From Bacteroidota bacterium (lineage in GTDB: Bacteria > Bacteroidota > Bacteroidia > Chitinophagales > Saprospiraceae), in the NCBI GenBank assembly GCA_020160935.1, contig JAIUPL010000028.1:1-64000 (forward strand): 64,000 nt of DNA. Direction: 5' to 3'. A model generated the notes under the pieces. The model did no database searches and was not told the DNA's origin. It saw only the letters and a program-made list of their open reading frames with translations. Positions 6,947 through 61,128 of the stretch are shown one piece after another (position 1 is the first letter of the stretch; each line of letters begins with the position of its first letter). Made by a program: the position numbers and the translations under genes.

Positions 6947-7105
6947 GGTTGGTAGGGGTTGATGAGGGTTGATGAGGGTTGATGAGGGTTGATAAGTGTT
7001 GATATTCAGCCGCTCGAATAAGGAACGATTTGTCCTTTTCCTGAGTAGTTGAATATCAACACTTATCAACCCTCATCAACCCTCATCAACTCCTTATCAA
7101 CCTCA
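6947..7105. repeat. GTTGATGAGG palindromic array inside the pnt operon
   Basis: About four copies of gttgatgagg (10-base unit) are followed by a unique stem (gttgatattc / gaatatcaac) and then the reverse-complement copies (caaccctcat...). The palindrome occupies the whole gap between pntAb and pntB. Read on the operon strand, it begins directly after the pntAb TGA as tgaggttgataagg and ends just before the pntB start. It should fold into a long hairpin in the intercistronic RNA. Confidence 0.9.
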
Positions 7106-7405
7106 TCATTTCTTTTTCTTAAACATTTCCAGCATACGATTGGTGACGACAAAGCCGCCTACCACATTGAGAGTGCCCAGCAAAACAGCCAGAAAGCCCA
7201 GTATCAATGCCAGGTAATCATCGGAATGCGCATGCCCCATCACAATGATAGCCCCGATAATGACCACCCCGTGGATGGCATTGGCGCCCGACATCAGCGG
7301 CGTATGCAGGATTGCAGGCACATTGGAAATCACTTCGATGCCCAGCAAAATGGACAGTATCACGATGTAAATGATTTCCTGGTGCTGTAGAAAAAAATCT
7401 GCCAT
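7106..7405 (-). CDS. pntAb: NAD(P)+ transhydrogenase subunit alpha 2 (membrane part)
   Basis: This 99-residue protein corresponds to the C-terminal membrane segment of the PntA alpha chain in species where alpha is split in two. It carries three to four hydrophobic helices (IIYIVILSILLGIEVISNVP, VVIIGAIIVMG, YLALILGFLAVLLGTLNVVGGF) and a Lys-rich C-terminus. The motif HTPLMSGANAIHG near residues 34-46 is typical of the proton-channel part. It sits between the soluble alpha 1 gene upstream and pntB downstream on the same strand, completing the three-subunit enzyme. Confidence 0.95.
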   Translation of the reverse strand: MADFFLQHQEIIYIVILSILLGIEVISNVPAILHTPLMSGANAIHGVVIIGAIIVMGHAHSDDYLALILGFLAVLLGTLNVVGGFVVTNRMLEMFKKKK

Positions 7406-7461
7406 GGAAATTATAAAGTTGAATTTGTTCGGTTAAGTCTGTGGCTTATGCAGCCGGCATT

Positions 7462-8592
7462 TCAGGCGGTTTGCATCGCTTGTTTCAGGCGTTCGCTGAC
7501 CACCTCGCCGTTGTGGGCAATACAGGTAGCAGCCACAATATCATCGCTGAAATTGAGATTCAGTTCATTTTTGATGGCGATCAGTTTAATAAAGTTGATG
7601 ACATTTTTACCAAACATCACGCTGGCATCCTTCGGCATGGAAGCGGCCAGGTTGGAATCCCCAACAATGGTAACCTGCTGATAGCGAATGGTTTGTCCAT
7701 TTTCGGTCGCCTCGCAGTTGCCGCCCGTAGAAGCAGCCATATCAACGATTACAGCGCCGGGTTTCATGGCGGCCACTGTTTCCTTGCGGAGCAACACGGG
7801 TGCTTTTCTGCCCGGAATCTGGGCAGTACAAATGATCACATCGGATGCTGCGGCATGGTCGTGGATCAATTGTGCCTGGCGTTGTTTGAATTCCTCTGTT
7901 TGCTCCACGGCGTAACCGCCCGCGGCTTTGTCGTCGCGCGCACCTTCCACTTCCACAAATTTGGCGCCCAGGCTGAGCACCTCTTCTCTGGCGGCAGCCC
8001 GCACGTCGAAGGCTTCTACGACAGCACCCAGGCGGCGCGCCGTAGCAATGGCCTGGAGACCGGCCACACCTGCACCGAGGATAAGCACCTTGGCCGGTTT
8101 GATGGTGCCGGCAGCCGTCATGCTCATCGGGAAAAATGTAGGCAACAGGTTGGCAGCGGTAAGCACCGCCTTGTAACCTGCCACAGTAGCCATCGACGAC
8201 AGCACGTCGAGCGCCTGGGCCCGCGTGGAGCGGGGCGCCAGATCGAGGCTGAAAGCAGATACACCTGCTTTGAGCATATCGTCTACCATGGCGTGTTGAG
8301 AGAGCGGGTTGAATTGTCCGATCAGGATTTGACCGGCTTTCAGTTTGCCCAGTACAGATTTGGCAGGAGCATGAATGGATACGATAACGGAGGCTTGTTT
8401 CAAAACGGCGTCCTGATCTGCCACTTGCGCCCCCTGTTTTTCGAAGGCAGCATCATCAAAAGATGCCTTTTCGCCGGCGCCGCGTTCTACCCATACGTTT
8501 TGAAAACCCAATTTCATCAGACCCGGAATCGCATCGGGTGTGACAGCGACCCGATTCTCGTCGCCACTTTCTTTCAAAATACCAAGCGTCAT
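7462..8592 (-). CDS. pntAa: NAD(P)+ transhydrogenase subunit alpha 1 (NAD-binding part)
   Basis: This 376-residue soluble domain I of the transhydrogenase binds NAD(H). It resembles alanine dehydrogenase. It begins MTLGILKESGDENRVAVTP, the expected N-terminus, and has the Rossmann motif ILGAGVAGLQAIATARRLGA near residues 170-190. It is the first gene of the pnt operon. With PntAb and PntB it would maintain NADPH from the proton-motive force. An alternative identity as alanine dehydrogenase is unlikely given the two partner genes. The promoter should lie in the following 527-base gap. A TACTTTCG-like -7 element on the minus strand (8676-8683) is a weak candidate without a matching -33. Confidence 0.96.
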   Translation of the reverse strand: MTLGILKESGDENRVAVTPDAIPGLMKLGFQNVWVERGAGEKASFDDAAFEKQGAQVADQDAVLKQASVIVSIHAPAKSVLGKLKAGQILIGQFNPLSQHAMVDDMLKAGVSAFSLDLAPRSTRAQALDVLSSMATVAGYKAVLTAANLLPTFFPMSMTAAGTIKPAKVLILGAGVAGLQAIATARRLGAVVEAFDVRAAAREEVLSLGAKFVEVEGARDDKAAGGYAVEQTEEFKQRQAQLIHDHAAASDVIICTAQIPGRKAPVLLRKETVAAMKPGAVIVDMAASTGGNCEATENGQTIRYQQVTIVGDSNLAASMPKDASVMFGKNVINFIKLIAIKNELNLNFSDDIVAATCIAHNGEVVSERLKQAMQTA

Positions 8593-8838
8593 AGTTTGGT
8601 GTTAGTTATTGGTTAGTAGTTTTTGGCGGCACGTGCTCTTTTGCGGCTGCCTTCCAACGCCTCCGATTGGAGCGCCGAAAGTAAGCGTTTTTAAAAATCG
8701 GAAGACTGAAAAAAAAGCATATTTTTTTGAAGTGCTTTTATATAAAATTCTACTAAATAACGGCGGATGTCGGCGCCTGTAAAATATATTTCTGAAAGGC
8801 GAAAGGTCAAAATGCACTGCCACGGGGCGGCATTTTCG

Positions 8839-8871
8839 TCCGAAAGCGAACACGTCCGTTCGACACCGGAC
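8839..8871. promoter_or_regulatory. Candidate operator pair upstream of permease 1
   Basis: Two GTCCG dyads lie in the 527-base gap between pntAa and the first permease (8593-9119), which otherwise shows no gene. One is gtccgaaagcgaac at 8839-8852. The other is gtccgttcgacaccggac at 8854-8871. The first matches the perfect dyad upstream of permease 2 (gtccgaaatcggac at 11628) at 12 of 14 positions. This suggests a common activator or repressor site for the permease set. Confidence 0.5.
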
Positions 8872-8925
8872 ACCCTTGGCGCAAAAACATCTGCCTAATT
8901 CATTGCCAATCAAACAATTACAAAA

Positions 8926-8942: not shown

Positions 8943-9027
8943 CTTCCCCAAGGCGGTCGTTGCTTAATATTCCTCACTCTTTGCCATATTACACAGGAAT
9001 GTCAATTGCTTTTTTAACAGTGGGATT

Positions 9028-14269: not shown

Positions 14270-14690
14270 CGTAGAGTAATTTCCCGCAGATTGCGCAGAT
14301 TTACCCGCAGATCTCCGCAGATTGTAGAGTGTACAACGTAGAGTAGTTCCCCGCAGATTGCGCAGATTTACCCGCAGATTTCCGCAGAACGTAGAGTGTA
14401 CATCGTAGAGTACGTTGAGTACACATTATTAATGCTTTAAAGAAATTGGAATACTCTACGATCTGCGGAAATCTGCGGGTAAATCTGCGCAATCTGCGGG
14501 GAACTACTCTACGTTGTACACTCTACGTTCTGCGGAAATCTGCGGGTAAATCTGCGCAATCTGCGGGAAACTACTCTACGTTGTACAGTCTACGATCTAC
14601 GGAAATCTGCGGGTAAATCTGCGCAATCTGCGAGAAACTACTCTACGTTGTACACTCTACGATCTAAGGAAATCCGCGGGAAACCACACT
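14270..14690. repeat. GTAGAG/CTGCGG palindromic element, copy 2
   Basis: This large compound inverted repeat fills most of the 497-base gap between permeases 2 and 3. The left part reads gtagagta and cgcagattgcgcagattt words. The right part contains three to four tandem blocks (tctgcgggtaaatctgcgca ... actactctacgttgtaca) that are its reverse complement. The loop near 14418-14452 has acacattatta then atgctttaaagaaat, closely matching the loop of copy 1 at 3524-3556. I see no gene inside. Confidence 0.88.
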
Positions 14691-17097: not shown

Positions 17098-19527
17098 ATG
17101 TTGAAAAATCACCTTGTCATTGCTTTCCGAAACCTGCTCAAAAACCGCACATTTTCATTGCTCAACATCGGCGGACTCAGTGCCGGGCTGGCGGTGACCA
17201 TGCTCATTGGCCTATACATCCGCGATGAGTGGTCGTTTGATCGTTTTCATGAAAAAGCCGACCGCATTTACCGCATTAATCTTGATGCACGCGTAGGTGG
17301 AGAGGAGCAGTTAATGGCCGTCACCCCCGCCCCCATGGGCCCTGCTTTTGTGCGCGATTACCCGGCCGTGGAAGACTTCTGTCGTTTCCGGCAATGGGGC
17401 TTTATCAGTGTGAGAAAAGGAACTGAAGCCATCGAGGAAGGCAACAATACGTATGTAGACAGCAGTTTTTTCCGGGTATTTTCTTTTCCGCTGCTGGAAG
17501 GCGATCCCAAAACGGCACTGGTAGAGCCCAACACCATGGTGATTTCCGAAAAAATGGCGCAAAAATACTTCGGCGCCACCACAGGAATCGTAGGGCGCAC
17601 GCTGCGCATCAACGAGTACATCGACCGGCGCGTCACAGGCGTCATGAAAGACATGCCTGCACAGTCGCACATGCACTACGATTTCTTGTTCTCGATGTCG
17701 ACCATTGAAGAAGGAAGTCAGGACGTATGGTTGTCAAATAATTTTCAGACCTACCTCCTGCTTCGGCCGGGTGTTTCTGCCACTCAATTTCCGGCATATT
17801 TTGCCGAAATGAAGGAAAAATACCTGCGCCCGCAGTTCGATCGCGTTACCGGCAGCACCCTTTCTGCGTTTGAAGGTTCGGGCGATTTTATGCGGTACAG
17901 CCTGCAAAATATGCGCGACATTCACTTATTCAGCGACCGAAACGGCGAGCACGAAGCCAATTCCGATGTCAAATACATGTGGATTTTCGGCATTGTCGCC
18001 CTGATGGTTTTGCTGCTGGCTTGTGTCAATTTTATGAACCTGAGCACCGCTCGTTCGGCAGGCCGTGCGCGCGAGGTGGGTGTGCGCAAAGCGCTCGGAT
18101 CAAATCGCAGCCTGCTGGTGCGGCAGTTTTTGACAGAGAGTATGCTGCTCACGCTGGTGTCGTTCGCACTGGGCATCGGCGCCGTATATGCTGCGTTGCC
18201 GGCTTTTAATACATTCGCCGACAAAGACATTGCATTTTCTGTAGCCGACATGCCCATGATGTCTGCGCTGGCAGGGCTGGCATTCGTGACGGCACTGGTG
18301 GCGGGTAGTTACCCTGCATTTTTCCTGTCAGCGTTCCGGCCGCTGGATACCCTGAAAGGTACTTTGTCGAACAGTGGAAAAGGGTCGGCGCGCCTGCGTA
18401 GCAGCCTGGTAGTGTTCCAGTTTTTCACATCCATTGCGCTGATTATTTCAGTATTGGTGGTGCAACAGCAATTGTCATTTATCCAAAACAAAAAACTCGG
18501 CTGGGAAAAAGAGCAAATCGTGATGCTACGCAACACCTGGTGGCTGCAAGGCAAAACACTCGATTTCAAACAACAACTTCTGCAAATTCCGGGTATCGAG
18601 GAGGTGTCGTGTGTCGACTACTTCCCTACCCCATCCAGCCGCAACAACACGCCCTTTACGCCCGCTGGCGCCGATGCTGCCACACAATCGGTGGCCAGCC
18701 AGTGGTGGGAAGTAGATTTCGATTACCTGCCGACGCTGGGCCTTCAGATGCACAGCGGACGCTGGTTCGATGCTGCGCTAAAAACCGATTCGGCCGTGTG
18801 TGTCATCAATGAGGCTGCCATGAAAGCATTCGGTTGGACAGATATTCAAGAGCATCGAATTACCACAATCGTCGGCGATCAGCCCACCCAGCCCCTTAGC
18901 ATGGAAGTGGTGGGTGTAGTGGAAAATTTCCACTACGAAAGCCTGCGTGAAAATATCGGCCCCCTGGTGATGACCATTGGGAAAGGAAGCGGCACCATGG
19001 CGCTGCGCCTGTCGAAACAGGCAGATGTGGAAAAAACGTTGTCGGCCGTAAATACCCTGTTCAAGGGTTATTTGCCTTCACAGCCCTTCAACTACCGCTT
19101 CCTCGATGATGAATTTAACCTGCAATACGCATCGGAGCGGCGTATCGGTGGCATCCTGGGCGCGTTTGCCGGGTTTGCAATATTCATCGCCTGCCTCGGA
19201 CTGTTCGGGCTGGCAGCCTTCATGGCCGAACAACGCACCCGGGAAATCGGAATCCGCAAAGTGCTGGGTGCTTCCGTCAGTTCACTGGTACGCCTGCTGT
19301 CGAGCGATTTTCTGCGCCTGGTAGCCATTGCAGTGGTGCTGGCTGTACCACTGGCCTGGTATTTCATGCACAACTGGCTGCAGGATTTTGCTTACCATAT
19401 CAACCTGAAATGGTGGATGTTTGCGCTGGCAGGACTGATTGCGGCAGGTATTGCATTCCTGACCGTGGCAGGGCAGGCCATGCGGGCTGCGCTGGCGAAT
19501 CCGGTGCGAGCGCTTAAAAGAGAGTGA
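17098..19527 (+). CDS. FtsX/MacB-type ABC permease 4
   Basis: This 809-residue permease starts MLKNHLVIAFRNLLKNRTF. The first FtsX core (REVGVRKALGSNRSLLVRQF) is near residue 324 and the second (REIGIRKVLGASVSSLVRLL) near 714. It ends NPVRALKRE. It is translationally adjacent to permease 3, two bases downstream, so the pair may form a heterodimer (inference). The ATPase that powers such permeases is not encoded beside any of the five. Its stop codon (gagTGA) merges into a GAGGTGAGA-type repeat array. Confidence 0.93.
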   Translation: MLKNHLVIAFRNLLKNRTFSLLNIGGLSAGLAVTMLIGLYIRDEWSFDRFHEKADRIYRINLDARVGGEEQLMAVTPAPMGPAFVRDYPAVEDFCRFRQWGFISVRKGTEAIEEGNNTYVDSSFFRVFSFPLLEGDPKTALVEPNTMVISEKMAQKYFGATTGIVGRTLRINEYIDRRVTGVMKDMPAQSHMHYDFLFSMSTIEEGSQDVWLSNNFQTYLLLRPGVSATQFPAYFAEMKEKYLRPQFDRVTGSTLSAFEGSGDFMRYSLQNMRDIHLFSDRNGEHEANSDVKYMWIFGIVALMVLLLACVNFMNLSTARSAGRAREVGVRKALGSNRSLLVRQFLTESMLLTLVSFALGIGAVYAALPAFNTFADKDIAFSVADMPMMSALAGLAFVTALVAGSYPAFFLSAFRPLDTLKGTLSNSGKGSARLRSSLVVFQFFTSIALIISVLVVQQQLSFIQNKKLGWEKEQIVMLRNTWWLQGKTLDFKQQLLQIPGIEEVSCVDYFPTPSSRNNTPFTPAGADAATQSVASQWWEVDFDYLPTLGLQMHSGRWFDAALKTDSAVCVINEAAMKAFGWTDIQEHRITTIVGDQPTQPLSMEVVGVVENFHYESLRENIGPLVMTIGKGSGTMALRLSKQADVEKTLSAVNTLFKGYLPSQPFNYRFLDDEFNLQYASERRIGGILGAFAGFAIFIACLGLFGLAAFMAEQRTREIGIRKVLGASVSSLVRLLSSDFLRLVAIAVVLAVPLAWYFMHNWLQDFAYHINLKWWMFALAGLIAAGIAFLTVAGQAMRAALANPVRALKRE

Positions 19528-19606
19528 GAAAGGTGAGAGGGTGAGAGGTGAGAGAGTGAGAGGTGAGAGAGTGAGAGAGTGAGAGGTGAGAGGTGAGAGG
19601 TGAGAG
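19524..19606. repeat. GAGAGTGA / GAGGTGA array after permease 4
   Basis: A purine-rich tandem array starts at the stop codon of permease 4 (gagTGA) and continues as gagaggtgag and gagagtgag units for about 80 bases. It carries TGA in shifting frames. No mirrored arm follows here. The rest of the 212-base gap to the next gene holds nothing else recognisable except CGCCTTTG at 19637-19644, a poor -7 match. Confidence 0.85.
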
Positions 19607-19739
19607 GCACTGGAGGTAAAAGATCGGTGGAATGCGCCTTTGCAGGTACGATTGGTCAAAAAAAGCATGGGGAAGAGGCTTCAACATGTACCTTGTTTTC
19701 GACAAAAACATCCATGTAACACTCCATTCTTTAGGTGCT

Positions 19740-24045: not shown

Positions 24046-24066
24046 ACCTTTTGACCAATCCCCTTT

Positions 24067-24136
24067 CACTACTGACTACTCACTACTGACTACTCACTAC
24101 TGACCACTCACTACTGACTACTCACCACTCACTACC
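24067..24136. repeat. ACTACTC array in the tetR 5' leader
   Basis: About ten 7-base units (cactact, gactact, caccact) lie between the operator and the tetR ATG, so they would form the 5' untranslated leader. This is the pyrimidine-rich orientation seen before start codons throughout the window. No purine-rich mirror partner is adjacent. Confidence 0.85.
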
Positions 24137-24140
24137 CACC

Positions 24141-29331: not shown

Positions 29332-30729
29332 ATGAATTTCGATTTGATTGTTATAGGCAGCGGTCCCGGCGGATATGTGGCTGCCATCCGTGCCGCCCAA
29401 CTGGGTATGAATGTAGCCGTTATCGAACGCGAAAGCCTCGGCGGCATTTGCCTCAACTGGGGCTGTATCCCCACAAAAGCCCTGCTCAAAAGCGCACAAG
29501 TATTTGATTATCTGAACCATGCAGAAGACTTCGGTATCAAGGTAGGTAAAGCCTCCGCCGATTTCGACGCCGTCATCAAACGCAGCCGCGGCGTGGCCGA
29601 TGGTATGAGCAAGGGCGTGCAGTTTCTGATGAAAAAGAACAAGATCACGGTCATCATGGGCACTGGCAAACTCGTAGCCGGTCCGAAAGTAGCCGTAACC
29701 GATGCCGCAGGCGCTATAACCGAATACGCTGCCAAACACATCATCGTGGCCACCGGCGGCAGGGCCAAACAACTGCCTAACCTGCCCATCGACGGCAAAA
29801 AAATCATCGAATACCGCAAGGCCATGAGCCTGGAAAGCATGCCCAAACGCATGGTAGTGGTGGGCGCCGGCGCTATCGGCGTCGAATTCGGCTATTTCTA
29901 CCACACCATGGGCTCGGAAGTGAGCATCGTGGAATTCATGGAACAAGGCCTCGTGCCGCGCGAAGACGCCGATATTTCCAAGGAACTCGGCAAAATTTTC
30001 AACAAAAAAGGTATCAAGGTGTACGGCAACTGGGCCGTTGAAAACGTCGACACCAGCGGCAAGGAAATCAAGGTGAACATGAAAAATCGCAAGGATGGCG
30101 CTACCGAAACCATCTTGTGCGACGTAGTGCTCAGCGCTGCCGGCGTAACGCCCAATACCGAAAACATCGGCCTTGAAGACCTCGGCATTACCACAGACCG
30201 CGGCTACATCAAAGTGGATGAATACTACCGCACCAATGTGCCTGGCGTGTACGCCATCGGCGACGTGCTGGCCACCCAGGCCCTGGCACACGTGGCCAGC
30301 GCCGAAGGCATCACCTGCGTGGAAGCCATTGCCGGCCATCACCCCGAAACCATCGACTACAATAATATCCCCGGCTGCACCTACTGCGTGCCCGAAATCG
30401 CTTCGGTTGGCTACACCGAACAAGCCGCCAAAGAGGCCGGCTATGAGGTTTTGATCGGCAAATTCCCGTTCACCGCCTCCGGCAAAGCAAAAGCCGCCGG
30501 ACACCCGGAAGGTTTCGTCAAAGTCATTTTTGACAAAAAATACGGCGAATGGCTCGGCGCCCATTTCATCGGATACAACGTGACGGAAATGATCGCCGAA
30601 GTGGTCGTAGCCCGAAAACTCGAAACGACCGGCCATGAAATCATCAAATCCATCCACCCCCACCCTACCATGAGCGAAGCGATTATGGAAGCGGCGGCCG
30701 CGGCGTATGGGGAGGTGATACACCTCTAG
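29332..30729 (+). CDS. lpdA: Dihydrolipoyl dehydrogenase
   Basis: The ATG at 29332 gives 465 residues, the normal family length. The longer in-frame start at 29224 would lie in the palindrome. This flavoprotein reoxidises dihydrolipoamide in 2-oxoacid dehydrogenase and glycine cleavage complexes. The FAD motif is GSGPGGYVAAIRAAQLG near residue 9, the redox-active disulfide is in GGICLNWGCIPTKAL near 38-52, the NAD-binding motif is VVGAGAIGVEFGYF near 178, and the second FAD motif is VYAIGDVL near 306. The active-site base is in HPHPTMSEA near 442. No E1/E2 genes are adjacent. The stop leads straight into a GAGAGTGA array. Confidence 0.97.
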   Translation: MNFDLIVIGSGPGGYVAAIRAAQLGMNVAVIERESLGGICLNWGCIPTKALLKSAQVFDYLNHAEDFGIKVGKASADFDAVIKRSRGVADGMSKGVQFLMKKNKITVIMGTGKLVAGPKVAVTDAAGAITEYAAKHIIVATGGRAKQLPNLPIDGKKIIEYRKAMSLESMPKRMVVVGAGAIGVEFGYFYHTMGSEVSIVEFMEQGLVPREDADISKELGKIFNKKGIKVYGNWAVENVDTSGKEIKVNMKNRKDGATETILCDVVLSAAGVTPNTENIGLEDLGITTDRGYIKVDEYYRTNVPGVYAIGDVLATQALAHVASAEGITCVEAIAGHHPETIDYNNIPGCTYCVPEIASVGYTEQAAKEAGYEVLIGKFPFTASGKAKAAGHPEGFVKVIFDKKYGEWLGAHFIGYNVTEMIAEVVVARKLETTGHEIIKSIHPHPTMSEAIMEAAAAAYGEVIHL

Positions 30730-30816
30730 AGAGAGTGAGAGAGTGAGAGAGTGAGAGAGTGAGAGAGTGAGAGAGTGAGAGAGTGAGAGAGTGAGAGAGT
30801 GAGAGAGTGAGAGACA
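30727..30816. repeat. GAGAGTGA tandem array after lpdA
   Basis: About eleven perfect copies of an 8-base unit (gagagtga) begin at the lpdA stop codon (ctcTAGagagagtga). TGA recurs every 8 bases and so falls in all three frames. It is part of the 543-base gap 30730-31272. A short ggcaaggggcaaaa run follows at 30828-30860. Confidence 0.92.
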
Positions 30817-33286: not shown

Positions 33287-33410
33287 GACCTCACCCCCCG
33301 GCCCCCTCTCCGGGGGAGAGGGGGTGACTTCCCGCTCGGCATCCTTTATTCAGAATGCCAAGGGTACTCGCTCCCCCTCTCCCTCGGAGAGGGGGCCGGG
33401 GGGTGAGGTC
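33287..33410. repeat. GACCTCACCCCCCGG palindromic element H1
   Basis: This inverted repeat begins directly after the dehydrogenase stop. Its outer arms are gacctcaccccccggccccc / gggggccggggggtgaggtc. The loop (about 33326-33373) reads tgacttcccg...ggcatcctttattcagaatgcc...gtactcgc. The same element, with its loop in the opposite orientation, follows the next gene (34714-34855). The remaining part of the 296-base gap to 33582 holds an ACTCACT array. Confidence 0.92.
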
Positions 33411-33524: not shown

Positions 33525-33580
33525 CCACTGACCACTCACTACTCACCACTGACTACTCACCACTCACCACTGACTACTCA
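33525..33580. repeat. ACTCACT array before the aminotransferase
   Basis: Eight 7-base pyrimidine-rich units (actcact, caccact, gactact) end two bases before the start codon at 33583. It is the same unit as upstream of tetR and fcl. Confidence 0.85.
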
Positions 33581-33582
33581 CT

Positions 33583-34713
33583 ATGAGCCTTCAAATGGTT
33601 GACCTCAAAACCCAGTACCAACGCATTCAATCCGACATACAGCGGGAGATGCAGGAGGTACTGGAAACCAGCATGTTCATCGGCGGGCCCAAAGTGAATG
33701 CCTTCCGCGAAAACCTGGAAGCCTACCTTGGCGTTCGGCACGTGATCCCCTGCGCCAATGGCACCGACGCCCTGCAAATCGCTATGATGGCGCTCGGATT
33801 GCAACCCGGCGACGAGGTCATTGTTCCGGCATTTACGTATGTCGCCACGGCTGAAGTGATCGGGCTGCTGGGCCTGAAACCCGTTATGACGGATGTCGAC
33901 CCGGAGACGTTCAATATCACTGCTGCGCACATCGAGGCGGCTATTACGCCGCGTACCAAAGCCATCGTGCCCGTACACCTGTTCGGACAAAGTGCTGATA
34001 TGGAAGCCATTATGCAGGTAGCCGAGCGACACAACTTGTACGTCATCGAAGACAACGCCCAGGCCATCGGCGCCGACTACACCTTTGCCGACGGCGCTGT
34101 ACGCAAAACAGGAGCCATCGGACATTTCGGCTGCACCTCGTTTTTCCCTTCCAAAAACCTGGGCTGCTACGGCGACGGCGGCGCCCTCATGACCAACGAC
34201 GACGATTTGGCCGCCAAAGCGCGCATGATCGCCAACCACGGCCAATCGCGACAATATTACCACGACAAAATCGGCGTTAATTCGCGCCTCGACGCCCTCC
34301 AGGCCGTGGTGCTCAATGTGAAACTGCCACACCTCGACACCTACAACAACAGCCGCCGTGGCGCCGCGCTCTACTACGACAGCGTATTTTCCAATATCGC
34401 CGACCTCAAAATTCCCGGCCGACAGCACAATTCCACCCACGTGTTCCACCAGTACACCCTGCGTTTGGAAGGTGGCCCAGCCCGCCGCGATGCCCTCAAA
34501 GCATTCCTGCAAGAACAAGGTATCCCGGCCATGATCTACTACCCCGTTCCGCTGTACAAACAACTGGCGTTCGAGCACTGGTGGCCAGGTGGCACACTGC
34601 CCGTAACCGAACAATTGTGCGATTCGGTGTTTTCCTTGCCTATGCACTCCGAACTGAACGAGGCAGTGCTGGAGCGGATAACGAAAGCGGTTAAAGCGTT
34701 TTTTGAAAAGTAA
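33583..34713 (+). CDS. DegT/DnrJ/EryC1/StrS sugar aminotransferase (WbpE-like)
   Basis: This 376-residue PLP-dependent sugar aminotransferase converts a 3-keto (or 4-keto) nucleotide sugar to the amino sugar with glutamate as donor. The PLP lysine is K191 in FFPSKNLGCYGDGGA. Other family marks are CANGTDALQIAMMALG near 58, GDEVIVPAFTYVATAEV near 76, VEDNAQ-type acidic motif (YVIEDNAQAIGADY) near 155, and GVNSRLDALQAVVLNVKL near 233. Position between a UDP-sugar 6-dehydrogenase and a WbpB-type oxidoreductase favours the 3-amino-uronic acid route. It is flanked by the two H palindromes. Confidence 0.93.
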   Translation: MSLQMVDLKTQYQRIQSDIQREMQEVLETSMFIGGPKVNAFRENLEAYLGVRHVIPCANGTDALQIAMMALGLQPGDEVIVPAFTYVATAEVIGLLGLKPVMTDVDPETFNITAAHIEAAITPRTKAIVPVHLFGQSADMEAIMQVAERHNLYVIEDNAQAIGADYTFADGAVRKTGAIGHFGCTSFFPSKNLGCYGDGGALMTNDDDLAAKARMIANHGQSRQYYHDKIGVNSRLDALQAVVLNVKLPHLDTYNNSRRGAALYYDSVFSNIADLKIPGRQHNSTHVFHQYTLRLEGGPARRDALKAFLQEQGIPAMIYYPVPLYKQLAFEHWWPGGTLPVTEQLCDSVFSLPMHSELNEAVLERITKAVKAFFEK

Positions 34714-34855
34714 GACCTCACCCCCGGCCCAGACCTCACCCCCCGACCCCCTCTCCGAGGGAGAGGGGGAGCGAGTACCCTCGGCATTCTGTATAAAGGA
34801 TGCCAAGCGGGAAGTCACCCCCTCTCCCTCGGAGAGGGGGCCGGGGGGTGAGGTC
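34714..34855. repeat. GACCTCACCCCCCGG palindromic element H2 (loop inverted)
   Basis: This is a second copy of the H element, starting directly after the aminotransferase TAA, with gacctcaccccc partly duplicated on the left. Its loop (about 34770-34818) is the reverse complement of the H1 loop with only a few differences. That pattern fits inversion by pairing or recombination between the arms. Confidence 0.92.
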
Positions 34856-40636: not shown

Positions 40637-40637
40637 T

Positions 40638-41831: not shown

Positions 41832-41922
41832 AATTTTTGACAATAATGTTTATGCTTAATATCAAGGTTAGAAAACCATGTGAAAGCATCAAAAGTAACA
41901 ACTCATATTCTTCTATAACATC

Positions 41923-45219: not shown

Positions 45220-45226
45220 CAAACTT

Positions 45227-46258: not shown

Positions 46259-46279
46259 TTTTTTTATCTAAATTGATAA

Positions 46280-56128: not shown

Positions 56129-57222
56129 CCATCCTCTCCGTCGTCGGTGCGCGCCCCAATTTCATGAAAGTTGCCCCTTTGCACCGTGCTTTTCTTGCCT
56201 CCGGGCGCGTCCATTCCAAAATTGTTCATACCGGACAGCATTACGACGCCCGGATGAGCGACGTGTTTTTCCGTCAACTCGAACTGCCGCAGCCCGATTA
56301 CTACCTCGGCGTAGGCGGCGGGTCGCATACCGTACAAACGGCGGGTATCATGCTGGCCTTTGAAAAAGTGCTGGAGCAGGAGCGGCCCGACTGGGTGCTG
56401 GTGGTCGGCGACGTCAATTCCACAGTAGCCGCCACGATGGTGGCCAAAAAGATGGATATTCCGGTCGCGCATGTGGAGGCGGGACTGCGCAGCGGCGACC
56501 GGCGCATGCCCGAAGAGATCAACCGGCTGATGACCGATGCGGTGTCTGATTTGTTGTTCGTCACCGAACCAAGCGGCATGGAGCACCTCGCGCGCGAGGG
56601 CGTGCCAGCGCACAAGGTGCATTTTACGGGCAATTGTATGATCGATTCGCTGGTGCATTATCGCCCCAAGGCCGCCGAAACGCGTACGGTGGAACAACTT
56701 GGTTTGTTACCCCAACAGTATTTACTCGTCACTATGCACCGGCCGTCCAATGTGGATACCGCGGAAGGACTAACCGCCATTACAGAGATGCTGGAAGGCG
56801 CGGCGCAACGCACGACCGTGGTGTTTCCGATGCACCCGCGCACCCGGCAAAACCTGGAAAAATTTGGTCTGGCAAAACGTTTGTCGGCACATGCTCGTAT
56901 ATTGTTACTCGAACCGCAAGGTTATCTTGAATTTTTGCATTTGATGGAACACGCAGCCCTGGTACTGACAGATTCCGGTGGAATACAGGAAGAAACCACC
57001 TATTTACAAGTGCCCTGTTTAACATTTCGCGACAGCACGGAGCGCCCGGTGACAGTCGAACTCGGCACCAATGTCCTGCTCGCCGACCTCGATCCGAAAA
57101 AAGCCCTGGCGCTGCTGGACGAAGCCCTGGCCGGCCACTGGAAAAAAGGAGAAATACCGCCGATGTGGGACGGGAGAGCGGCGGAAAGAATACTACATGT
57201 AGTTATGAGTTATGAGTTATGA
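56125..57222 (+). CDS. wecB: Non-hydrolysing UDP-GlcNAc 2-epimerase (WecB/WbpI type)
   Basis: The protein has 365 residues from a GTG start overlapping the DUF433 stop. The enzyme interconverts UDP-GlcNAc and UDP-ManNAc, and WbpI relatives epimerise UDP-2,3-diacetamido-uronic acids. Family marks are VVGARPNFMKVAPLHRAF near residue 6, VVHTGQHYD-type IVHTGQHYDARMSDVFF near 35, HVEAGLRSGDRRMPEEINR near 116-134, TMHRPSNVD near 208, and LTDSGGIQEETTYLQVPCLT near 286. With the Wbp-type genes upstream a WbpI-like role is conceivable. The last residues (MSYEL) are encoded by the repeat unit that continues past the stop codon. Confidence 0.92.
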   Translation: MTILSVVGARPNFMKVAPLHRAFLASGRVHSKIVHTGQHYDARMSDVFFRQLELPQPDYYLGVGGGSHTVQTAGIMLAFEKVLEQERPDWVLVVGDVNSTVAATMVAKKMDIPVAHVEAGLRSGDRRMPEEINRLMTDAVSDLLFVTEPSGMEHLAREGVPAHKVHFTGNCMIDSLVHYRPKAAETRTVEQLGLLPQQYLLVTMHRPSNVDTAEGLTAITEMLEGAAQRTTVVFPMHPRTRQNLEKFGLAKRLSAHARILLLEPQGYLEFLHLMEHAALVLTDSGGIQEETTYLQVPCLTFRDSTERPVTVELGTNVLLADLDPKKALALLDEALAGHWKKGEIPPMWDGRAAERILHVVMSYEL

Positions 57223-57407
57223 AAGGGGAGTTATGAGTTATGAAAGGGAAGTTATGAGTTATGGAGTTATGAGTTATGAGTTGTACTCACTTCACTTTCG
57301 GTTACTCTTATGAAGGAGCCAATAGCGAAGTGAGTACAACTCATAACTCATAACTCCATAACTCATAACTCCCTTTTCATAACTCCCCTTTCATAACTTA
57401 TAACTTT
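57202..57407. repeat. GAGTTAT palindromic array between wecB and asnB
   Basis: 7-base units (gagttat) begin inside the last wecB codons, pass through its TGA and continue. They lead into a unique inner stem (ttgtactcacttc / gaagtgagtacaa) around a roughly 30-base loop. The reverse-complement units (ataactc) follow up to 15 bases before asnB. TGA recurs in changing frames on the coding strand. Confidence 0.93.
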
Positions 57408-57421: not shown

Positions 57422-59290
57422 ATGTGCGGTTTAGCAGCCATCTTCCAACACCAGCCTTTACCCGAGGCGGATGCCCTGATCCGGGCAATAACAAACGGAT
57501 TGCAGCACCGTGGCCCCGATGCCGACGGCCATTACGTCGATGATCGGGTAGCGCTGGGGCATCGGCGTCTGGCCATTATCGACCTGTCGGAACTCGGGCG
57601 CCAGCCTATGTGGGATGTGACAGGCCGCTACGCAGTGGTGTACAATGGCGAGATTTACAATTACAAGGAACTGAAGCAGGAACTGGCCAACTACCCGTTT
57701 CGCTCGGGCAGCGATACGGAAGTGCTGCTGGCCGGTTTTGCGGCCTGGGGTGTCGATTTGTTTGCCAAATTGAACGGCATTTTTGCTTTTGCCCTGTACG
57801 ACAAACAGGAGGAGCGCATGTGGGTGGTACGCGACCGATTTGGCATCAAACCCATGTACTACACCTCCGACGAGCGGTTTTGCATCGTGTCGTCTGAGCA
57901 ACGCCCCATTTTGGCGTCGGGGCTGGTTGAAATGAACATCTCCAGAGATGCTATCGCCGATTTTCTGTACGATGGCGCCGTATGTGGCGTGCAGCGTTGT
58001 TGTGATGACATGCGCCAACTCCCTGCGGGCCACTACATGATGCTGGAAAAAGGGCGTCTGCCGGTAGTAAAACCGTATTACCTGTTTTTTGAACATATCC
58101 GCCCGCTGCAGTCTGTTAGTCTCGATACAGCGCAGCGGGAACTGCGCCGGCTGCTGCGCCAGGCTGTGGAGCGGCAATTGATCAGTGATGTGCCGCTGGG
58201 CGCATTTCTGTCGGGTGGCATCGATTCGAGTGCAGTGGTGGCTATGATGTCGGAAGTGAGCCCTGAACGACCGCTTACGTTTACGGTGGGTTTCAAGGAA
58301 AAACAATTTGACGAGAGTCCATATGCTGCGCTAATTGCTAAAAAATTCAATACGCGGCACACGGTACTGACGCTCGAGGCCGATGACTTCCTGCACGAAC
58401 TACCCAATATGGTCGATGCGCTGGACACGCCTACCCTCGACGGCATCAATACCTATGTCGTGTCGAAAATGACGCGAAAAGCGGGGGTTACAGTGGCGCT
58501 GTCGGGGCTGGGTGGCGACGAGTTGTTTGCCGGGTACGCCACATTCAAGCGGTACTATGAGTGGAAACAGCATATTTTCTGGAAATTACCGGGCTTTTTA
58601 CGGCGATCGGCAGGTTTTGCCTTGCAGCAACTGGGCCAATCGACCCGTATGCGGCGTCTGGGTGAAATCCTGAGCGTTCCTGCTTTCGATATAGACTGGG
58701 TATATCCGCAGTTTCGTGGCATTTACGACAAACGGACGGTAGCCGACATGCTGGGCCACGCACCGGCGCCCAATCCGATCTTTACGTTCCTGCATCAGCA
58801 CCGTGCTGCCATCCAGCGCCTGCCCTTGTTGTCGCAGTATTCTGTCGCGGAAATGACGGGGTATACCAACCATATGCTGCTCAAGGATACCGACCAGATG
58901 AGTATGGCGTCGGCGCTGGAGGTCCGGGTGCCATTTTTCGATAATGATCTGGTGGATTACGTACTTTCGCTGCCCGATTCCATCAAATTTCCCCATACCC
59001 CCAAATCACTGCTGGTAGGCGCCCTGGGCGATTTGCTGCCTTCCGAGATTGTTCATCGCCCGAAAATGGGTTTTACCTTGCCCTGGGAACAGTGGCTGCG
59101 TGGCGAATTGCACACATTTTGTCAGCAACGCCTCGACGCACTCTGCGACCGCGGCTTGCTCGACCCGACCCGCATCCGCCAAATGTGGGATCAGTTTAAC
59201 CGCCAAAGCCATCAGGTACTGGCATCGCATATCTGGATGCTGGTGGTGTTGGAACATTGGCTACAAAAAAATATGGATAAGGAGTTATGA
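57422..59290 (+). CDS. asnB: Asparagine synthetase (glutamine-hydrolysing)
   Basis: This 622-residue two-domain amidotransferase has an N-terminal Ntn glutaminase with catalytic Cys2 (MCGLAAIFQ), GLQHRGPDADG near 27 and YNGEIYNYKELK near 75. The C-terminal ATP-pyrophosphatase domain carries the SGGIDSSAVVAMM P-loop near residue 265 and LSGLGGDELFAGY near 360. It amidates carboxyl groups. In EPS and O-antigen clusters such enzymes are thought to amidate sugar uronic acids (WbpS-like), which would fit the uronic-acid genes upstream. The protein ends KEL*, where GAG TTA TGA is the first unit of the following repeat. Confidence 0.95.
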   Translation: MCGLAAIFQHQPLPEADALIRAITNGLQHRGPDADGHYVDDRVALGHRRLAIIDLSELGRQPMWDVTGRYAVVYNGEIYNYKELKQELANYPFRSGSDTEVLLAGFAAWGVDLFAKLNGIFAFALYDKQEERMWVVRDRFGIKPMYYTSDERFCIVSSEQRPILASGLVEMNISRDAIADFLYDGAVCGVQRCCDDMRQLPAGHYMMLEKGRLPVVKPYYLFFEHIRPLQSVSLDTAQRELRRLLRQAVERQLISDVPLGAFLSGGIDSSAVVAMMSEVSPERPLTFTVGFKEKQFDESPYAALIAKKFNTRHTVLTLEADDFLHELPNMVDALDTPTLDGINTYVVSKMTRKAGVTVALSGLGGDELFAGYATFKRYYEWKQHIFWKLPGFLRRSAGFALQQLGQSTRMRRLGEILSVPAFDIDWVYPQFRGIYDKRTVADMLGHAPAPNPIFTFLHQHRAAIQRLPLLSQYSVAEMTGYTNHMLLKDTDQMSMASALEVRVPFFDNDLVDYVLSLPDSIKFPHTPKSLLVGALGDLLPSEIVHRPKMGFTLPWEQWLRGELHTFCQQRLDALCDRGLLDPTRIRQMWDQFNRQSHQVLASHIWMLVVLEHWLQKNMDKEL

Positions 59291-59402
59291 GTTATGAGTT
59301 ATGAGTTATGAGTTATATGCACGTTGCTTTTGGCTGCACAATTGAAGAAACCGAAAGCAACGTGTGTATAACTCATAACTCATAACTTATAACTCATAAC
59401 TC
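59282..59402. repeat. GAGTTAT palindromic array between asnB and gmd
   Basis: Five gagttat units start with the last two codons and stop of asnB. An inner unique stem follows (atgcacgttgcttt / aaagcaacgtgtgt), then the mirrored ataactc units. The array has the same unit as the wecB-asnB palindrome but a different inner stem. Confidence 0.93.
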
Positions 59403-59416
59403 TGTCGTTGTTTGCT

Positions 59417-60523
59417 ATGAAAAAAGCACTCATCACCGGTATTACCGGGCAAGACGGGGCCTACCTCGCTGAATTGTTGTTGAAAAAAGGGTATGAGGTG
59501 CACGGCATCAAACGCCGGAGTTCGTTGTTCAATACCGACCGCATCGACCATTTATATGAAGACCCGCACGTCAACAACCGCCATTTTATCCTGCATTATG
59601 GCGACCTGACCGATTCCACGAATTTGATCCGCATCATTCAGCAGGTGCAGCCCGACGAAATTTACAACCTGGGCGCACAAAGCCATGTGCAGGTGAGTTT
59701 TGAAACGCCGGAATACACCGCCAATGCCGATGCGGTAGGCGCCCTGCGCATCCTGGAAGCGATTCGGCTGCTGGGACTCACGGAAAAGACAAGGTTTTAC
59801 CAGGCTTCCACGTCGGAGTTGTACGGACTGGTGCAGGAGGTGCCGCAATCGGAAAAAACGCCGTTTTACCCGCGTTCTCCGTACGGCGTTGCCAAATTGT
59901 ACGGCTACTGGATCACGGTCAACTACCGCGAATCGTACGGCATTTTTGCCAGCAATGGTATTCTGTTCAACCACGAATCGCCGCTGCGGGGCGAAACGTT
60001 CGTGACGCGCAAAATCACGCGCGCCGCGGCCAAAATCGCTCTCGGCCTGCAAGACAAACTTTTCCTCGGCAACCTAGATGCCCAACGCGACTGGGGCCAT
60101 GCCAAAGACTACGTGGAAGGTATGTGGCGCATCCTGCAGCACAGCCAGCCCGACGATTTTGTGCTGGCTACGGGCCAAACCACGGCCGTTCGCGAGTTCT
60201 GCCGCATGGCTTTCCGTGAGGTGGGCGCCGAACTGGAATTTCAGGGCGAAGGTGTTGCTGAAAAAGGCATCATCGCTACGTCCAGCAACGACCTGCTCCG
60301 GCCAGGCCAGGAAGTCATTGCCATCGACCCGCGTTATTTCCGCCCCGCTGAGGTCGATCTGCTCGTCGGCGATGCCTCCAAAGCGAAAAACCTGCTGGGC
60401 TGGGAGCCGACGCATACGCTGACCGAATTGGTACACGATATGGTGCAGTCGGATGTGCAGTTGTTTAAACGCGAAGAGTATTTGAAGCAGGGAGGGTTTG
60501 TGATAAAGAACCAATTTGAGTAG
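59417..60523 (+). CDS. gmd: GDP-mannose 4,6-dehydratase
   Basis: The ATG at 59417 gives 368 residues; a TTG three codons upstream is less likely. This extended SDR enzyme converts GDP-D-mannose to GDP-4-keto-6-deoxy-mannose, the first step to GDP-L-fucose. It shows [20 protein letters not shown] at the N-terminus, the [14 protein letters not shown] region near 37-50, a catalytic Ser/Thr-rich stretch ([20 protein letters not shown] near 128-147), the YxxxK pair in [12 protein letters not shown] near 155, and [20 protein letters not shown] near 183. It lies upstream of fcl, separated by a four-helix bundle gene. The stop gagTAG starts a repeat array. Confidence 0.97.
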
Positions 60524-60697
60524 TGAGTAGTGAGTGGTGAGTGGTGAGTGATGAGTAGTGAGTGGTGAGTGGTGAGTGGTGAGTGGTGAGTGGTGAGTTA
60601 AGTATAACTTTTGTTAATATTGCAGATATTTACTACTCACCACTCACTACTCACCACTCACTACTCACCACTCACTACTCACCACTCACCACTCACT
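60518..60697. repeat. GAGTAGT/GAGTGGT palindromic array between gmd and the 23S-IVP-like gene
   Basis: About eleven 7-base units (gtgagta, gtgagtg) begin in the last gmd codon and stop. An AT-rich centre follows (about 60601-60633, ttaagtataacttttgttaa...), then about ten reverse-complement units (ctactca, ccactca). Together they occupy almost the entire 187-base gap. Confidence 0.93.
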
Positions 60698-60710
60698 AAT
60701 CCGCTTCATT

Positions 60711-61073
60711 ATGTTCCTCCAACTCAAACACACTCAACTTGAAATTTACAAAGCATCTGAAAAATTTGTAGGAAATTGTTATCAATTGACCCAACATCTA
60801 CCTACAGAAGAAAGATTTGGGATGATCTCCCAAATTAGGCGGGCTGCCTTATCAGTACATCTAAATATTGCTGAGGGTGCCTCCCGAAAGTCTACATTGG
60901 AACGAAAACGTTTTTTTGAAATAGCACGTGGTTCTTGTGTTGAGGTGGATGCTGCACTTGATATTGCATCTAGTCTAGGCTATTTACAAAAATTTGATAC
61001 AACACCACTTGGCATTTCATTGGTAACGTGCTATAAAATTATCTCCGGCCTCATCCACGCCCTAGAAAAATGA
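60711..61073 (+). CDS. Four-helix bundle protein (23S rRNA intervening-sequence type)
   Basis: This 120-residue all-helical protein of the S23/IVP family carries LEIYKASEKFVGNCYQLTQH near 11-30, RFGMISQIRRAALSVHLNIA near 36-55, and RFFEIARGSCVEVDAALDIA near 67-86. Relatives are found in 23S rRNA intervening sequences and as scattered single genes. Their function is unknown, possibly protein or RNA binding. It splits the gmd-fcl pair and is bracketed by ACTCACT-type arrays on both sides. Its base composition is more AT-rich than gmd and fcl, suggesting insertion. Confidence 0.9.
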   Translation: MFLQLKHTQLEIYKASEKFVGNCYQLTQHLPTEERFGMISQIRRAALSVHLNIAEGASRKSTLERKRFFEIARGSCVEVDAALDIASSLGYLQKFDTTPLGISLVTCYKIISGLIHALEK

Positions 61074-61128
61074 GGTTAACCTCACTACTCACTACTCACT
61101 ACTGACTACTGACTACTCACTACTCACC
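61072..61128. repeat. ACTACTC array before fcl
   Basis: A short palindrome (gaggttaacctc) at the preceding stop codon is followed by seven pyrimidine-rich 7-base units (actactc, gactact) ending one base before the TTG start of fcl. Confidence 0.88.

Follow-up and report, generated by a model that had tools for sequence, protein, structure and literature searches.

Palindromes of tandem arrays near stop codons are associated with S23 four-helix-bundle genes in a Bacteroidota genome and in other bacteria

Introduction

Heptamer repeats between genes have been reported on several occasions, and their origin and function are unsettled. The initial annotation of the DNA studied here considered its stop- and start-codon layout of repeats to be undescribed; the same strand layout had already been published for GGGAATC/GGGGAYT heptamers of Xanthomonas and Nostoc, which were interpreted as G-quadruplexes (PMC4692102). 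TAACTGA heptamers of Beggiatoaceae, Cyanobacteria and Bacteroidetes end open reading frames because they contain stops in all frames (PMC4679880). In the REPIN/RAYT system, the partner of the dispersed repeats is a Y1 transposase (PMC3116915). The intervening sequences (IVS) of 23S rRNA genes are patchy in occurrence and have been called selfish; the S23/IVP proteins that they encode have no known function, and it was suggested that S23 is not made in vivo in the species of that study (PMC4990558).

Results

Arrays and palindromes

The features of the window (the whole analysed stretch of 64,000 nt) are collected in Table 1. The paired arrays named in the initial annotation were found again at 6947/7054, 23539/23776, 27165/27271, 57201/57338, 59282/59368 and 60517/60632, as were its single arms after stops (19519, 30729, 31798 and 62053) and before starts (24066, 31892, 33525, 61081 and 63027) and its exception in a divergent gap (1016-1106). 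The two arms of the palindrome at 57201..57398 agree even in variant units. The initial annotation had overlooked the S23 gene within the GAGTAGT array structure. This gene is enclosed by inverted arrays, and we propose it as the cognate partner of the GAGTAGT arrays. The element is absent from two sister genomes (G005 and G023), in which gmd abuts or overlaps fcl. It lies between gmd and fcl, not in a 23S rRNA helix, and the window gave no Rfam matches.

Table 1. Arrays, palindromes and the S23 element in the 64,000-nt window.
Position	Strand	Feature	Remarks
1016..1106	-	TCTCACTC array	divergent gap, abuts neither gene
3466..3636	.	TCTGCGAG palindrome, family I	GTAGAGTACAC core; convergent gap after dnaK
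6947..7108	.	GTTGATGAGG palindrome, family C	minus-strand pnt operon; core ATTCAGCCGCTCGA..TGAAT
14270..14680	.	TCTGCG palindrome, family I	
19519..19607	+	single 5'-type arm AGGTGAG	at stop codon
23539..23971	.	GGCAARR palindrome, family L	
24066..24139	-	single 3'-type arm, TCACTAC/TGACTAC unit	before start codon
27165..27397	.	TTGAGGAG palindrome, family N	
30729..30814	+	single 5'-type arm GAGAGAGT	at stop codon
31798..31852	+	single 5'-type arm AGTGAGT	over stop codon
31892..31998	-	single 3'-type arm TATCAACCT	before start codon; family differs from 31798 arm
33525..33583	-	single 3'-type arm ACTCACT	
57201..57398	.	GAGTTAT palindrome, family A	core ACTCACTTC..GAAGTGAGT
59272..59402	.	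GAGTTAT palindrome, family A	51 nt separating arms
60517..60598	+	5' arm GAGTGGT/GAGTAGT	from last codons and stop of gmd (stop 60523)
60524..61129	.	complete S23 element	gmd-fcl gap
60632..60696	-	3' arm of GAGTGGT/GAGTAGT palindrome	upstream of S23 gene
60711..61073	+	S23 / 23S_rRNA_IVP four-helix-bundle protein gene, 120 aa	PF05635 E=1.3e-29, TIGR02436 E=4.2e-28
61081..61127	-	inverted GAGTAGT array	downstream of S23 gene, before fcl
62053..62118	+	single 5'-type arm GGGTTGAG	over fcl stop
63027..63062	-	single 3'-type arm CTCTCACT	

After merging, a 464-kb sample of this one genome (the window plus C25:1-220000 and C24:1-180000) contained 149 arrays; the period was 7 in 65 and 8 in 28, and 140 of the 149 lie mainly outside predicted genes. 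Five of the nine within predicted genes have a period divisible by three. There were 74 inverted repeats of 30 or more paired bases, against none in one order-2 Markov control, which bears out the hairpins suggested by the initial annotation; 73 of the 74 are centred in gaps, i.e., they are extragenic and dispersed, with predicted hairpins. Across the 5.84-Mb genome, three tandem GAGTTAT units (one mismatch) matched 206 times forward and 170 times reverse, and the reversed control gave 0. The arrays are real and far above chance, and those that occur in pairs mostly form the outer arms of long DNA palindromes that are almost perfect. Many of these palindromes have a common hairpin core between the arms, not a random loop, and cores are common to distant loci even across different units. 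Units differ among loci, as originally described, yet they group into families, most of which have several loci; we distinguished 15 palindrome families, and 11 further palindromes were placed in none. The units GAGTTAT, GAGTAGT and AGTCCTG are without quadruplex-capable runs of at least three G.

Position and strand

The anchor of the palindromes is the stop codon, not the start. A palindrome edge lay within 16 nt of a stop codon (overlaps counted) in 59 of 90 cases and of a start in 12 of 56, where starts, taken from our own gene caller, are less certain than stops; five sister genomes gave 56/77 and 8/51. Palindromes occupied 22 of 40 convergent and 6 of 43 divergent gaps in this genome, and 18/33 and 4/41, respectively, in the sister genomes. 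From the stop-seeded, start-mirrored arrangement of the initial annotation the stop side thus stands, and its proposed scan for stop and strand preference, run on the 464-kb sample, returned the stop-codon preference; the start side is much weaker. Its rule of purine-rich arrays after stops and pyrimidine-rich arrays before starts applied to 64 of 94 arrays (those of the 149 with a period up to 12 and in gaps of at least 30 nt), but purines exceeded 50% in only 39 of 73 5' arms. These arms are instead G-rich and C-poor (G > C in 58/70, 3 ties; p=2e-8), and their G/T bias is independent of gene direction. Strand consistency in the minus-strand pnt operon, noted in the initial annotation, is automatic, because an array pair that forms a palindrome obeys the same strand rule for both gene directions.

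S23 genes enclosed by inverted arrays

PF05635 is the S23 family, the "23S rRNA intervening sequence protein", which has no known function; family structures have been solved (2gsc, 2rld). Paired inverted arrays surround 7 of the 10 S23-like genes in the 5.84-Mb genome versus 5 of 298 other genes (p=1.9e-9). They surround 12 of 13 S23 genes in congeners, where p-values are overstated because congeners are not independent, and 20 further S23 loci had two-sided arrays in 15 cases. Y1 transposase genes, the type to which RAYT belongs, had two-sided arrays at 0/17. An enclosing inverted repeat was seen at 7 of these 17, and both Y1 genes of G000 had neither two-sided arrays nor an enclosing repeat. 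Reverse transcriptase genes had two-sided arrays at 0/3; RVT_1 occurs at four places in G000, one of which (C29:123656) adjoins an S23-like gene that is arrayless, and the Avd-like gene beside a reverse transcriptase (L048) has no arrays. A mobilising enzyme was searched for and not found: Y1 copies do not track palindromes, and RVT_1 is absent from the two most palindrome-rich genomes.

Among 99 S23 loci from wider bacteria, arrays were present on the left of 72, on the right of 78 and on both sides of 62, compared with 23 of 364 single control windows. The 65 distant loci (L076-L140) gave 43, 48 and 35, with 16/246 control windows; the array-flanked ones are spread over many phyla, and 30 of the 65 are without two-sided arrays. 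Loci L044 and L046 have one-sided arrays only. Enclosing inverted similarity was detected at 37/74 S23 loci versus 5/432 shifted and 4/74 direct comparisons. All 21 aligned S23 proteins match PF05635 and four match bAvd too; no catalytic domain was found in them besides these. Loci L042/L049/L060 are syntenic across species, as are L041/L051, and most S23 loci open to cross-species comparison have been inherited at the same position. Among five pairs, dS was computable for two, with dN/dS values of 0.094 and 0.105. The pairing of S23 genes with arrays is a new finding of this analysis.

The array unit goes with the S23 lineage, in that similarity between units correlates with identity between S23 proteins (Mantel r=0.44; 0.48 for L076-L140 alone). 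S23 count and palindrome density are correlated over 21 genomes (Spearman 0.76); in four checks of counts and sampling the coefficient lay between 0.63 and 0.75. Three genomes were preselected for GAGTTAT abundance. Two have an S23 flanked by GAGTTAT, which falls in the same group as its counterpart in this genome; the one predicted in G015 was not found. In G016, none of five loci examined was a GAGTTAT-flanked S23 despite 30 GAGTTAT matches. In this genome, nine S23 genes carry units matched by eye to 9 of the 15 families, and families E, F, G, H, I and K (26/73 palindromes) have no unit-matching S23 among its S23 loci. The S23 unit shows little dispersal in several genomes of Planctomycetes.

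Turnover and arm identity

The initial annotation had proposed comparing orthologous gaps in sister genomes, and these gave different families or nothing. One such gap differs among sister species, which have different palindrome families there or none at all, and some gaps in close relatives measure 0-35 nt, with no hairpin. Set against what a MITE or transposon would leave, orthologous gaps hold a different or no element; neither an exact insertion boundary nor a target duplication was seen among relatives too distant to show boundaries. One palindrome matches non-orthologous sites in two sister species at 88-89%, whereas gene matches there are 66-83%. Arms are 93-95% identical to their own partner versus 60-83% to other copies in families A, B and D (87% versus 79% in family K).

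Discussion

The palindromes are probably REPIN-like dispersed DNA-hairpin elements whose partner is S23, not a RAYT transposase. Such an element consists of an array, a family core hairpin and the inverted array, ∼100-250 bp in all and mostly directly after a stop codon, and many families have as proposed partner an S23 four-helix-bundle gene of the same genome, lying between inverted arrays of the family's unit. We infer that S23 binds or spreads hairpins: it would recognise its own unit in hairpin DNA (single-stranded or cruciform) and may help hairpin copies to spread or persist via a host nuclease, polymerase or recombinase. DNA-level correction would then keep the arms alike, and the position at gene ends would be what remains after insertion and selection.

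It is unlikely that the palindromes are instead functional RNA hairpins (terminators, RNase III sites or 3'-end protectors) with S23 as an RNA-hairpin-binding regulator. Stop anchoring and the excess of convergent over divergent gaps, also in sister genomes, would suit such a role, which resembles the cistron insulation and 3'-end protection suggested in the initial annotation. However, stem mismatches in gene sense amount to 97 G-U versus 102 A-C, and with no G-U excess the pairing looks kept at the DNA level; this weakens the RNA reading, and very long stems might tolerate any mismatch. TTTT follows within 10 nt at only 6 of 83 tandem-gap stems, unlike intrinsic terminators, and the hairpin-less orthologous gaps also argue against an RNA role, even though predicted RNA folds range from -11 to -111 kcal/mol (most below -40) and in the 23S rRNA IVS the S23 ORF sits in an RNA stem that RNase III cleaves (PMC4990558).

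We consider it improbable that the palindromes are a neutral by-product, in which heptamer arrays arise by polymerase slippage, are mirrored by template switching and are removed from genes and promoters by selection, while S23 genes simply tolerate such sites. Common cores at distant loci and across units, the high match at non-orthologous sister sites, the specificity for S23 against Y1, reverse transcriptase and other genes, and the tie between unit and S23 lineage all speak against it; the within-gene periods divisible by three (5/9), the direction-independent G/T bias and the higher arm identity within than between copies are in its favour. Template switching, raised in the initial annotation, may indeed keep arms alike, but it does not explain cores and units at distant loci or differing families at one orthologous gap. 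Least plausible, and in our view very improbable, is S23 as a selfish gene with array-hairpin ends, like the 23S rRNA IVS, with gene-less palindromes as its dead remnants. The S23 gene at L041 does lie between full or half palindromes, and the gmd-fcl element is missing in G005 and G023, but the synteny of S23 loci across species, dN/dS values near 0.1, the turnover of palindromes at orthologous gaps, and the excess of palindromes (74 in 464 kb) over S23 genes (10 in 5.84 Mb) are against it.

The S23-repeat pairing in many other bacteria hints at the job of both S23 and the repeats. More tentatively, S23 proteins could be sequence-specific hairpin-DNA partners of tandem-array palindromes bacteria-wide, perhaps also in archaea, with a 7-10-nt unit per lineage. 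If so, the DNA-hairpin partnership would stand beside REPIN/RAYT as a second such system, one that needs no transposase, would show repeat dispersal without a recognisable transposase, and would account for a large part of the intergenic heptamer repeats long known from Cyanobacteria, Bacteroidota and others, helping to explain their position at gene ends. The proteins of the 23S rRNA IVS and the Avd proteins of diversity-generating retroelements (DGR) would then share an ancestral job, DNA-hairpin handling at gene ends. The tie between unit and S23 lineage joins two puzzles, the repeats and the S23 family, and makes both testable, with one protein and one hairpin target predicted per S23.

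Among known systems, GGGAATC arrays also have the G strand on the coding side after stops and on the non-coding side before starts, and inverted pairs on opposite strands, more in convergent than in divergent gaps (PMC4692102). The present arrays share this layout, with a much weaker start side, and comprise many units, some without G-runs. S23, intervening and four helix are unmentioned in the main text of PMC4692102; in the Nostoc genome of L082, GGGGAAT lies on one side of S23 and the variant GGGGGAA on the other. TAACTGA heptamers are likewise intergenic and at gene edges, in phyla that are partly shared, but the published account presents them as direct repeats (169 sets, one inverted), discusses a role in regulating translation and does not mention S23 (PMC4679880). 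The Avd protein of DGRs is S23-like (4/21 S23 match bAvd). In DGRs the variable repeat is followed closely downstream by a DNA hairpin/cruciform in which the structure of the stem matters but its sequence does not; they require a reverse transcriptase (PMC3240598), whereas here the S23 locus beside one is arrayless and two array-rich genomes are without RVT_1. The 23S rRNA IVS shares an S23 ORF bordered by complementary stem-loop-forming sequences but lies inside rRNA genes (PMC4990558); here the elements are intergenic, with tandem-array stems and many gene-less copies. REPIN/RAYT has in common with the present palindromes inverted doublets that form hairpins, dispersal in extragenic space, and more than one family in a genome. 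Each REPIN family is near its own partner gene (PMC3116915), and here 9 of the 15 families have a candidate partner matched by unit; that partner is S23 instead of a Y1 transposase, and the arms are tandem arrays.

Palindromes at Gene Ends

The source genome (G000) amounts to 5.84 Mb in 51 contigs; the window covers the opening 64 kb of one of them, C1. The statistics were drawn from the window, 220 kb of contig C25 and 180 kb of contig C24 (464 kb), and genes were predicted with a purpose-made caller, whose stops are surer than its starts. Tandem Repeats Finder gave 149 merged arrays in this sample, 93 of them with a period of 7 or 8, and 140 of the 149 lay mainly outside predicted genes. The position of 94 arrays (period at most 12, gap at least 30 nt) was analyzed. 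A stop codon was nearest in 55, and 46 of these begin between -28 and +15 nt of the stop; a start codon was nearest in the other 39, at a distance of at most 15 nt in 18. Long inverted repeats account for most paired arrays, which form their outer arms; 74 of these repeats have at least 30 paired bases and 63 at least 40. One order-2 Markov control contained no inverted repeat with at least 30 paired bases.

Palindromes were found in 22 of 40 convergent, 44 of 191 tandem and 6 of 43 divergent gaps of G000 (convergent vs. divergent, p = 1.5e-4), and in 18/33, 38/124 and 4/41 gaps, respectively, of five sister genomes (p = 3e-5). A palindrome edge lay within 16 nt of the stop in 59 of 90 cases and of the start in 12 of 56; the corresponding figures in the sister genomes were 56/77 and 8/51. 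Because edges are near stops far more often than near starts, the element is anchored to gene ends. Mirroring at the start codon, described in the initial annotation, appears where a palindrome fills a short gap. That the arrays are assembly artefacts is not supported, since the same structures recur in many independent assemblies, isolates included. A low-GC stretch of the window, with genes resembling those for surface polysaccharides (GC is close to 52% over much of the remaining sequence), holds no arrays of the stop/start kind.

Simple insertion into otherwise unchanged gaps is disfavored by the convergent gaps, where the sequence left outside the palindrome has a median of 12 nt vs. 87.5 nt in palindrome-free gaps (p = 0.035). 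No such shortening was seen in tandem (77.5 vs. 104 nt, p = 0.39) or divergent gaps (358.5 vs. 289 nt, p = 0.88). Outward growth of the palindrome into the gap is possible.

Families, Polarity and Pairing of the Arms

Many arms enclose a family-specific hairpin core. The core of the GAGTTAT family (family A) is about ACTCAC.TTGCT.TTGGC...GCCAA.AGCAA.GTGAGT, and perfect GAGTTAT arms lie exactly 51 nt apart in nine of the listed pairs, counted by hand. Grouping of 73 sampled palindromes by words chosen by eye gave 15 families; 11 palindromes remained unassigned. The 7-mer GTAGAGT or its complement is present in 20 of the 73, under the units AGTCCTG, TCTGCGAG, GTGAGAGG and GTGTCCTTTGTG; core and unit are therefore partly modular. 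In the 5' arm G exceeds C in 58/70 and T exceeds A in 52/68 palindromes. This excess of G over C takes the place of the purine-rich rule proposed initially, as purines make up more than half of the 5' arm in just 39 of 73. Since the two strands of a palindrome have the same sequence, the polarity is independent of gene direction.

Three repeat groups are set apart in the table. Family K accounts for 7 of the 73 palindromes, carries GTAGAGT in five and has no S23 partner in G000; similar words are present in many unrelated bacteria. Two near-alike palindromes of family F bracket one gene, which might be another cargo or partner gene. The AGGGCAACGCCCTGGG tandem repeat, which follows arrays at several places, represents yet another dispersed family, different in kind from the arrays.

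If selection acted on RNA stems, more G-U than A-C mismatches would be expected on the coding strand of tandem genes. No G-U excess was observed in G000 (60 vs. 64) or in G000 plus sisters (97 vs. 102 in 83 palindromes, 343 mismatches and 4,719 columns, p = 0.78), and TTTT follows just 6 of 83 stems. The suggestion that the palindromes act as RNA hairpins is weakened by these counts, and only weakened, because a stem of great length might accommodate mismatches of any type. Within one copy, the identity of the inner arms was 95% in family A, 95% in B, 93% in D and 87% in K; between copies it was 83, 67, 60 and 79%, respectively, so the arms change together. Correction of one arm by the other would explain this most simply, as would template switching (PMC8794818), the second reading of the initial annotation.

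Coordinates of features in the window and other contigs of G000
Feature	Location	Observation
S23 gene	window 60711-61073 (+)	PF05635/TIGR02436 (23S rRNA intervening-sequence protein family)
Family F palindromes, unit GGCCCCCTCTCC	window 33290-33407; 34735-34852	
Gene between the family F palindromes	window 33595-34713	No S23 between the two palindromes (33290-34852)
Low-GC stretch	window about 40000-48000	GC 32-34%
Tandem repeat around AGGGCAACGCCCTGGG	window 62164-62332; C24:109128-109178; C24:164319-164451	26-44 bp
Family K palindrome, unit GTGTCCTTTGTGAAACC	C25:50733-50849	Six similar sites in the 464-kb sample
Clearest orthologous gap	C24:127456-127612	Flank proteins 91-95% identical to G016 and G006
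Palindrome	C24:127475-127597	Three matches on other contigs of G006 and G016, 88-89% identity
Second orthologous gap	C24:131957-132104	
Intergenic sequence, not called palindrome	C24:120291-120461	Two G006 matches, 91-93% identity
S23-like locus L048	C29:122600-127000	No arrays
Reverse transcriptase at L048	C29:123656-124294	350 nt from the S23-like gene

Turnover and Dispersal

Forty-five orthologous-gap comparisons were made, with weak flanking identity in several. The clearest gap holds a GTTGATGAGG palindrome in G000, GTTATTGG in the compared genome G016, GTGTTTGG in G006 and a perfect palindrome without arrays in G023; it measures 19 nt in G007 and G009 and 1 nt in G014, and the genes overlap in G021. 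The second gap is occupied by GAGTTAT in G000 and GTGTTTGG in G016, and is 34 nt in G022 and 20 nt in G014. Listed gene matches of G000 to G006 and G016 are 66-83% identical. The differing occupants at orthologous gaps, together with matches elsewhere in the genomes (see the table), indicate that the palindromes are dispersed and replaceable.

The unit GGGGAAT, which lies next to S23 at the Nostoc locus L082, was dispersed in each of the two Nostoc genomes tested, with 61 and 192 matches against 13 and 1 for the reversed control, and in 0 of 13 other genomes tested. AGTTGAG is hardly dispersed in Planctomycetes, its reversed control being uninformative because the unit reads the same backwards. 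It is found near S23 all the same, so arrays beside S23 need not mean spread.

S23 Genes Are Often Flanked by Arrays

The window S23 gene, whose relatives include the solved structures 2gsc and 2rld, is set between GAGTAGT arrays within the 606 nt separating gmd and fcl. In G005 the stop codon of gmd and the start codon of fcl overlap, and in G023 the two genes touch; the gmd-fcl gaps of G007 (790 nt) and G022 (930 nt) gave no S23 match. We compared the flanks of this gene, nine other S23-like genes of G000 and 13 from congeners. Seven of the 10 S23-like genes of G000 stand between inverted arrays of a single unit, vs. 5 of 298 other genes (p = 1.9e-9); one of the seven, L041, sits between two complete AGTCCTG palindromes. 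The exceptions are L044 and L046, with arrays on one side only, and L048, with none; L048 is probably a diversity-generating retroelement (DGR) Avd, an internal contrast to the array-flanked genes. Both sides carried inverted arrays at 12 of 13 congener genes. Of 20 further S23 loci, 15 had arrays on both sides, compared with 0/17 Y1 transposase and 0/3 reverse transcriptase genes.

Loci L042, L049 and L060 are syntenic, as are L041 and L051, but the neighbours of the window gene differ from those of L052, its closest relative. S23 dN/dS was 0.094 and 0.105 in the two of five pairs with computable dS. Among comparable loci S23 mostly stays in place, under strong purifying selection where this could be computed.

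Beyond the genus, we scanned 84,980 species genomes and kept the best 80 of 247 loci, picked by protein similarity and not by repeats. Of 99 S23 loci (22 order-level and 77 from the scan), 72 had arrays on the left, 78 on the right and 62 on both sides; single distant control windows of the same loci had them in 23/364. For the 65 loci L076-L140 (L098 from Saprospiraceae, L134 from Aureispira, the rest from other groups by title) the counts were 43, 48 and 35, with 16/246 in the control. Clear enclosing repeats occur in Nostoc, Planctomycetota, Verrucomicrobia, Nitrospirae, Omnitrophica and Pyrinomonadaceae, among others. The archaeal case is a single locus, L076 from an ANME MAG, which has arrays on both sides with an enclosing score below 20; L077 has none near. 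Left flanks of S23 are richer in G than C in 62/65 and right flanks richer in C than G in 51/63. Arrays on both sides are missing at almost half of the distant loci, so the S23-array link is common, not universal. A first flank test against mismatched loci put 8/80 above the 99% null, a low figure because that null included loci with the same unit.

Unit similarity followed S23 identity: the Mantel r was 0.44, and 0.48 within L076-L140, with p at the permutation floor (0.0005), and it was 0.20 for pairs below 60% identity. Among order-level genes, with unit labels partly entered by hand, units are mostly related between the closest S23 relatives: GTTGATGAGG (L042, L049, L060, L203), GAGAGG (L047, L204), AGT(C/G)C.. 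(L041, L051, L202) and GA.T.AT (L042, L049, L193, L196, L197, L205, L206). Among three genomes preselected for GAGTTAT abundance, GAGTTAT-flanked S23 was found in G035 and G023 and not in G015 (77% complete); G016, with 30 GAGTTAT matches, had it at none of five loci fetched. In 21 genomes, several represented by small samples and with shared ancestry uncorrected, S23 count correlated with the density of palindromes (Spearman 0.76) and with that of arrays (0.73; the G000 value from 125 arrays). The palindrome coefficient was 0.63 without the synteny-chosen stretches, 0.73 without S23-bearing contigs and 0.68 without the array-rich G000, G006 and G016.

Candidate Mobilisers

A reverse transcriptase is an unsuitable mobiliser, since the two genomes richest in palindromes, G006 and G016, lack RVT_1. 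Y1 transposases number 0-9 per genome, unrelated to palindromes, and lack arrays on both sides. Loss of SbcCD as a permissive cause showed no clean relation: SbcD was found in 19 of 21 genomes searched, array-rich ones included, mostly below the curated cut-off, and was undetected in G024 and in G000 (no match at E ≤ 0.001). Its absence may let G000 tolerate long palindromes, yet other palindrome-rich congeners have a weak match. S23 itself matched no catalytic family. With Y1 and reverse transcriptase unfit as helpers, we propose that S23 would bind its own unit in hairpin DNA and would work with a host enzyme.

Comparison With Known Systems

Older literature on cyanobacterial STRR and dispersed repeats exists. 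The strand-and-stop layout has already been described for GGGAATC/GGGGAYT arrays (PMC4692102), and TAACTGA is an earlier example of heptamers at gene edges (PMC4679880); the main text of neither paper mentions S23. No S23-array connection was found in the open-licence literature searched.

Two relatives point toward a hairpin-DNA role of S23. In the 23S rRNA intervening sequence, the S23 ORF is described as lying within a stem (PMC4990558). The Avd protein of DGRs is S23-like, and DGRs are reported to need a DNA hairpin just downstream of the target (PMC3240598).

Seven of the 17 Y1 genes (L220, L221, L222, L224, L225, L230 and L231, from G023, G022, G014, G007 and G009) are enclosed by inverted repeats but do not have tandem arrays on both sides. 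RAYTs would be expected to show this pattern, and the seven genes probably represent a separate system in the same genus.

REPINs are described as dispersed hairpin doublets; a genome has several families of them, and every family is linked to a partner gene, the RAYT (PMC3116915). The palindromes resemble them in the dispersed hairpin doublets and the several families per genome; the proposed partner here is S23, which mostly stays in place where loci are comparable. They are not members of the REPIN/RAYT class, because the test for a Y1 partner failed here; REPIN/RAYT is the kind of system that the proposed S23 system would work like.
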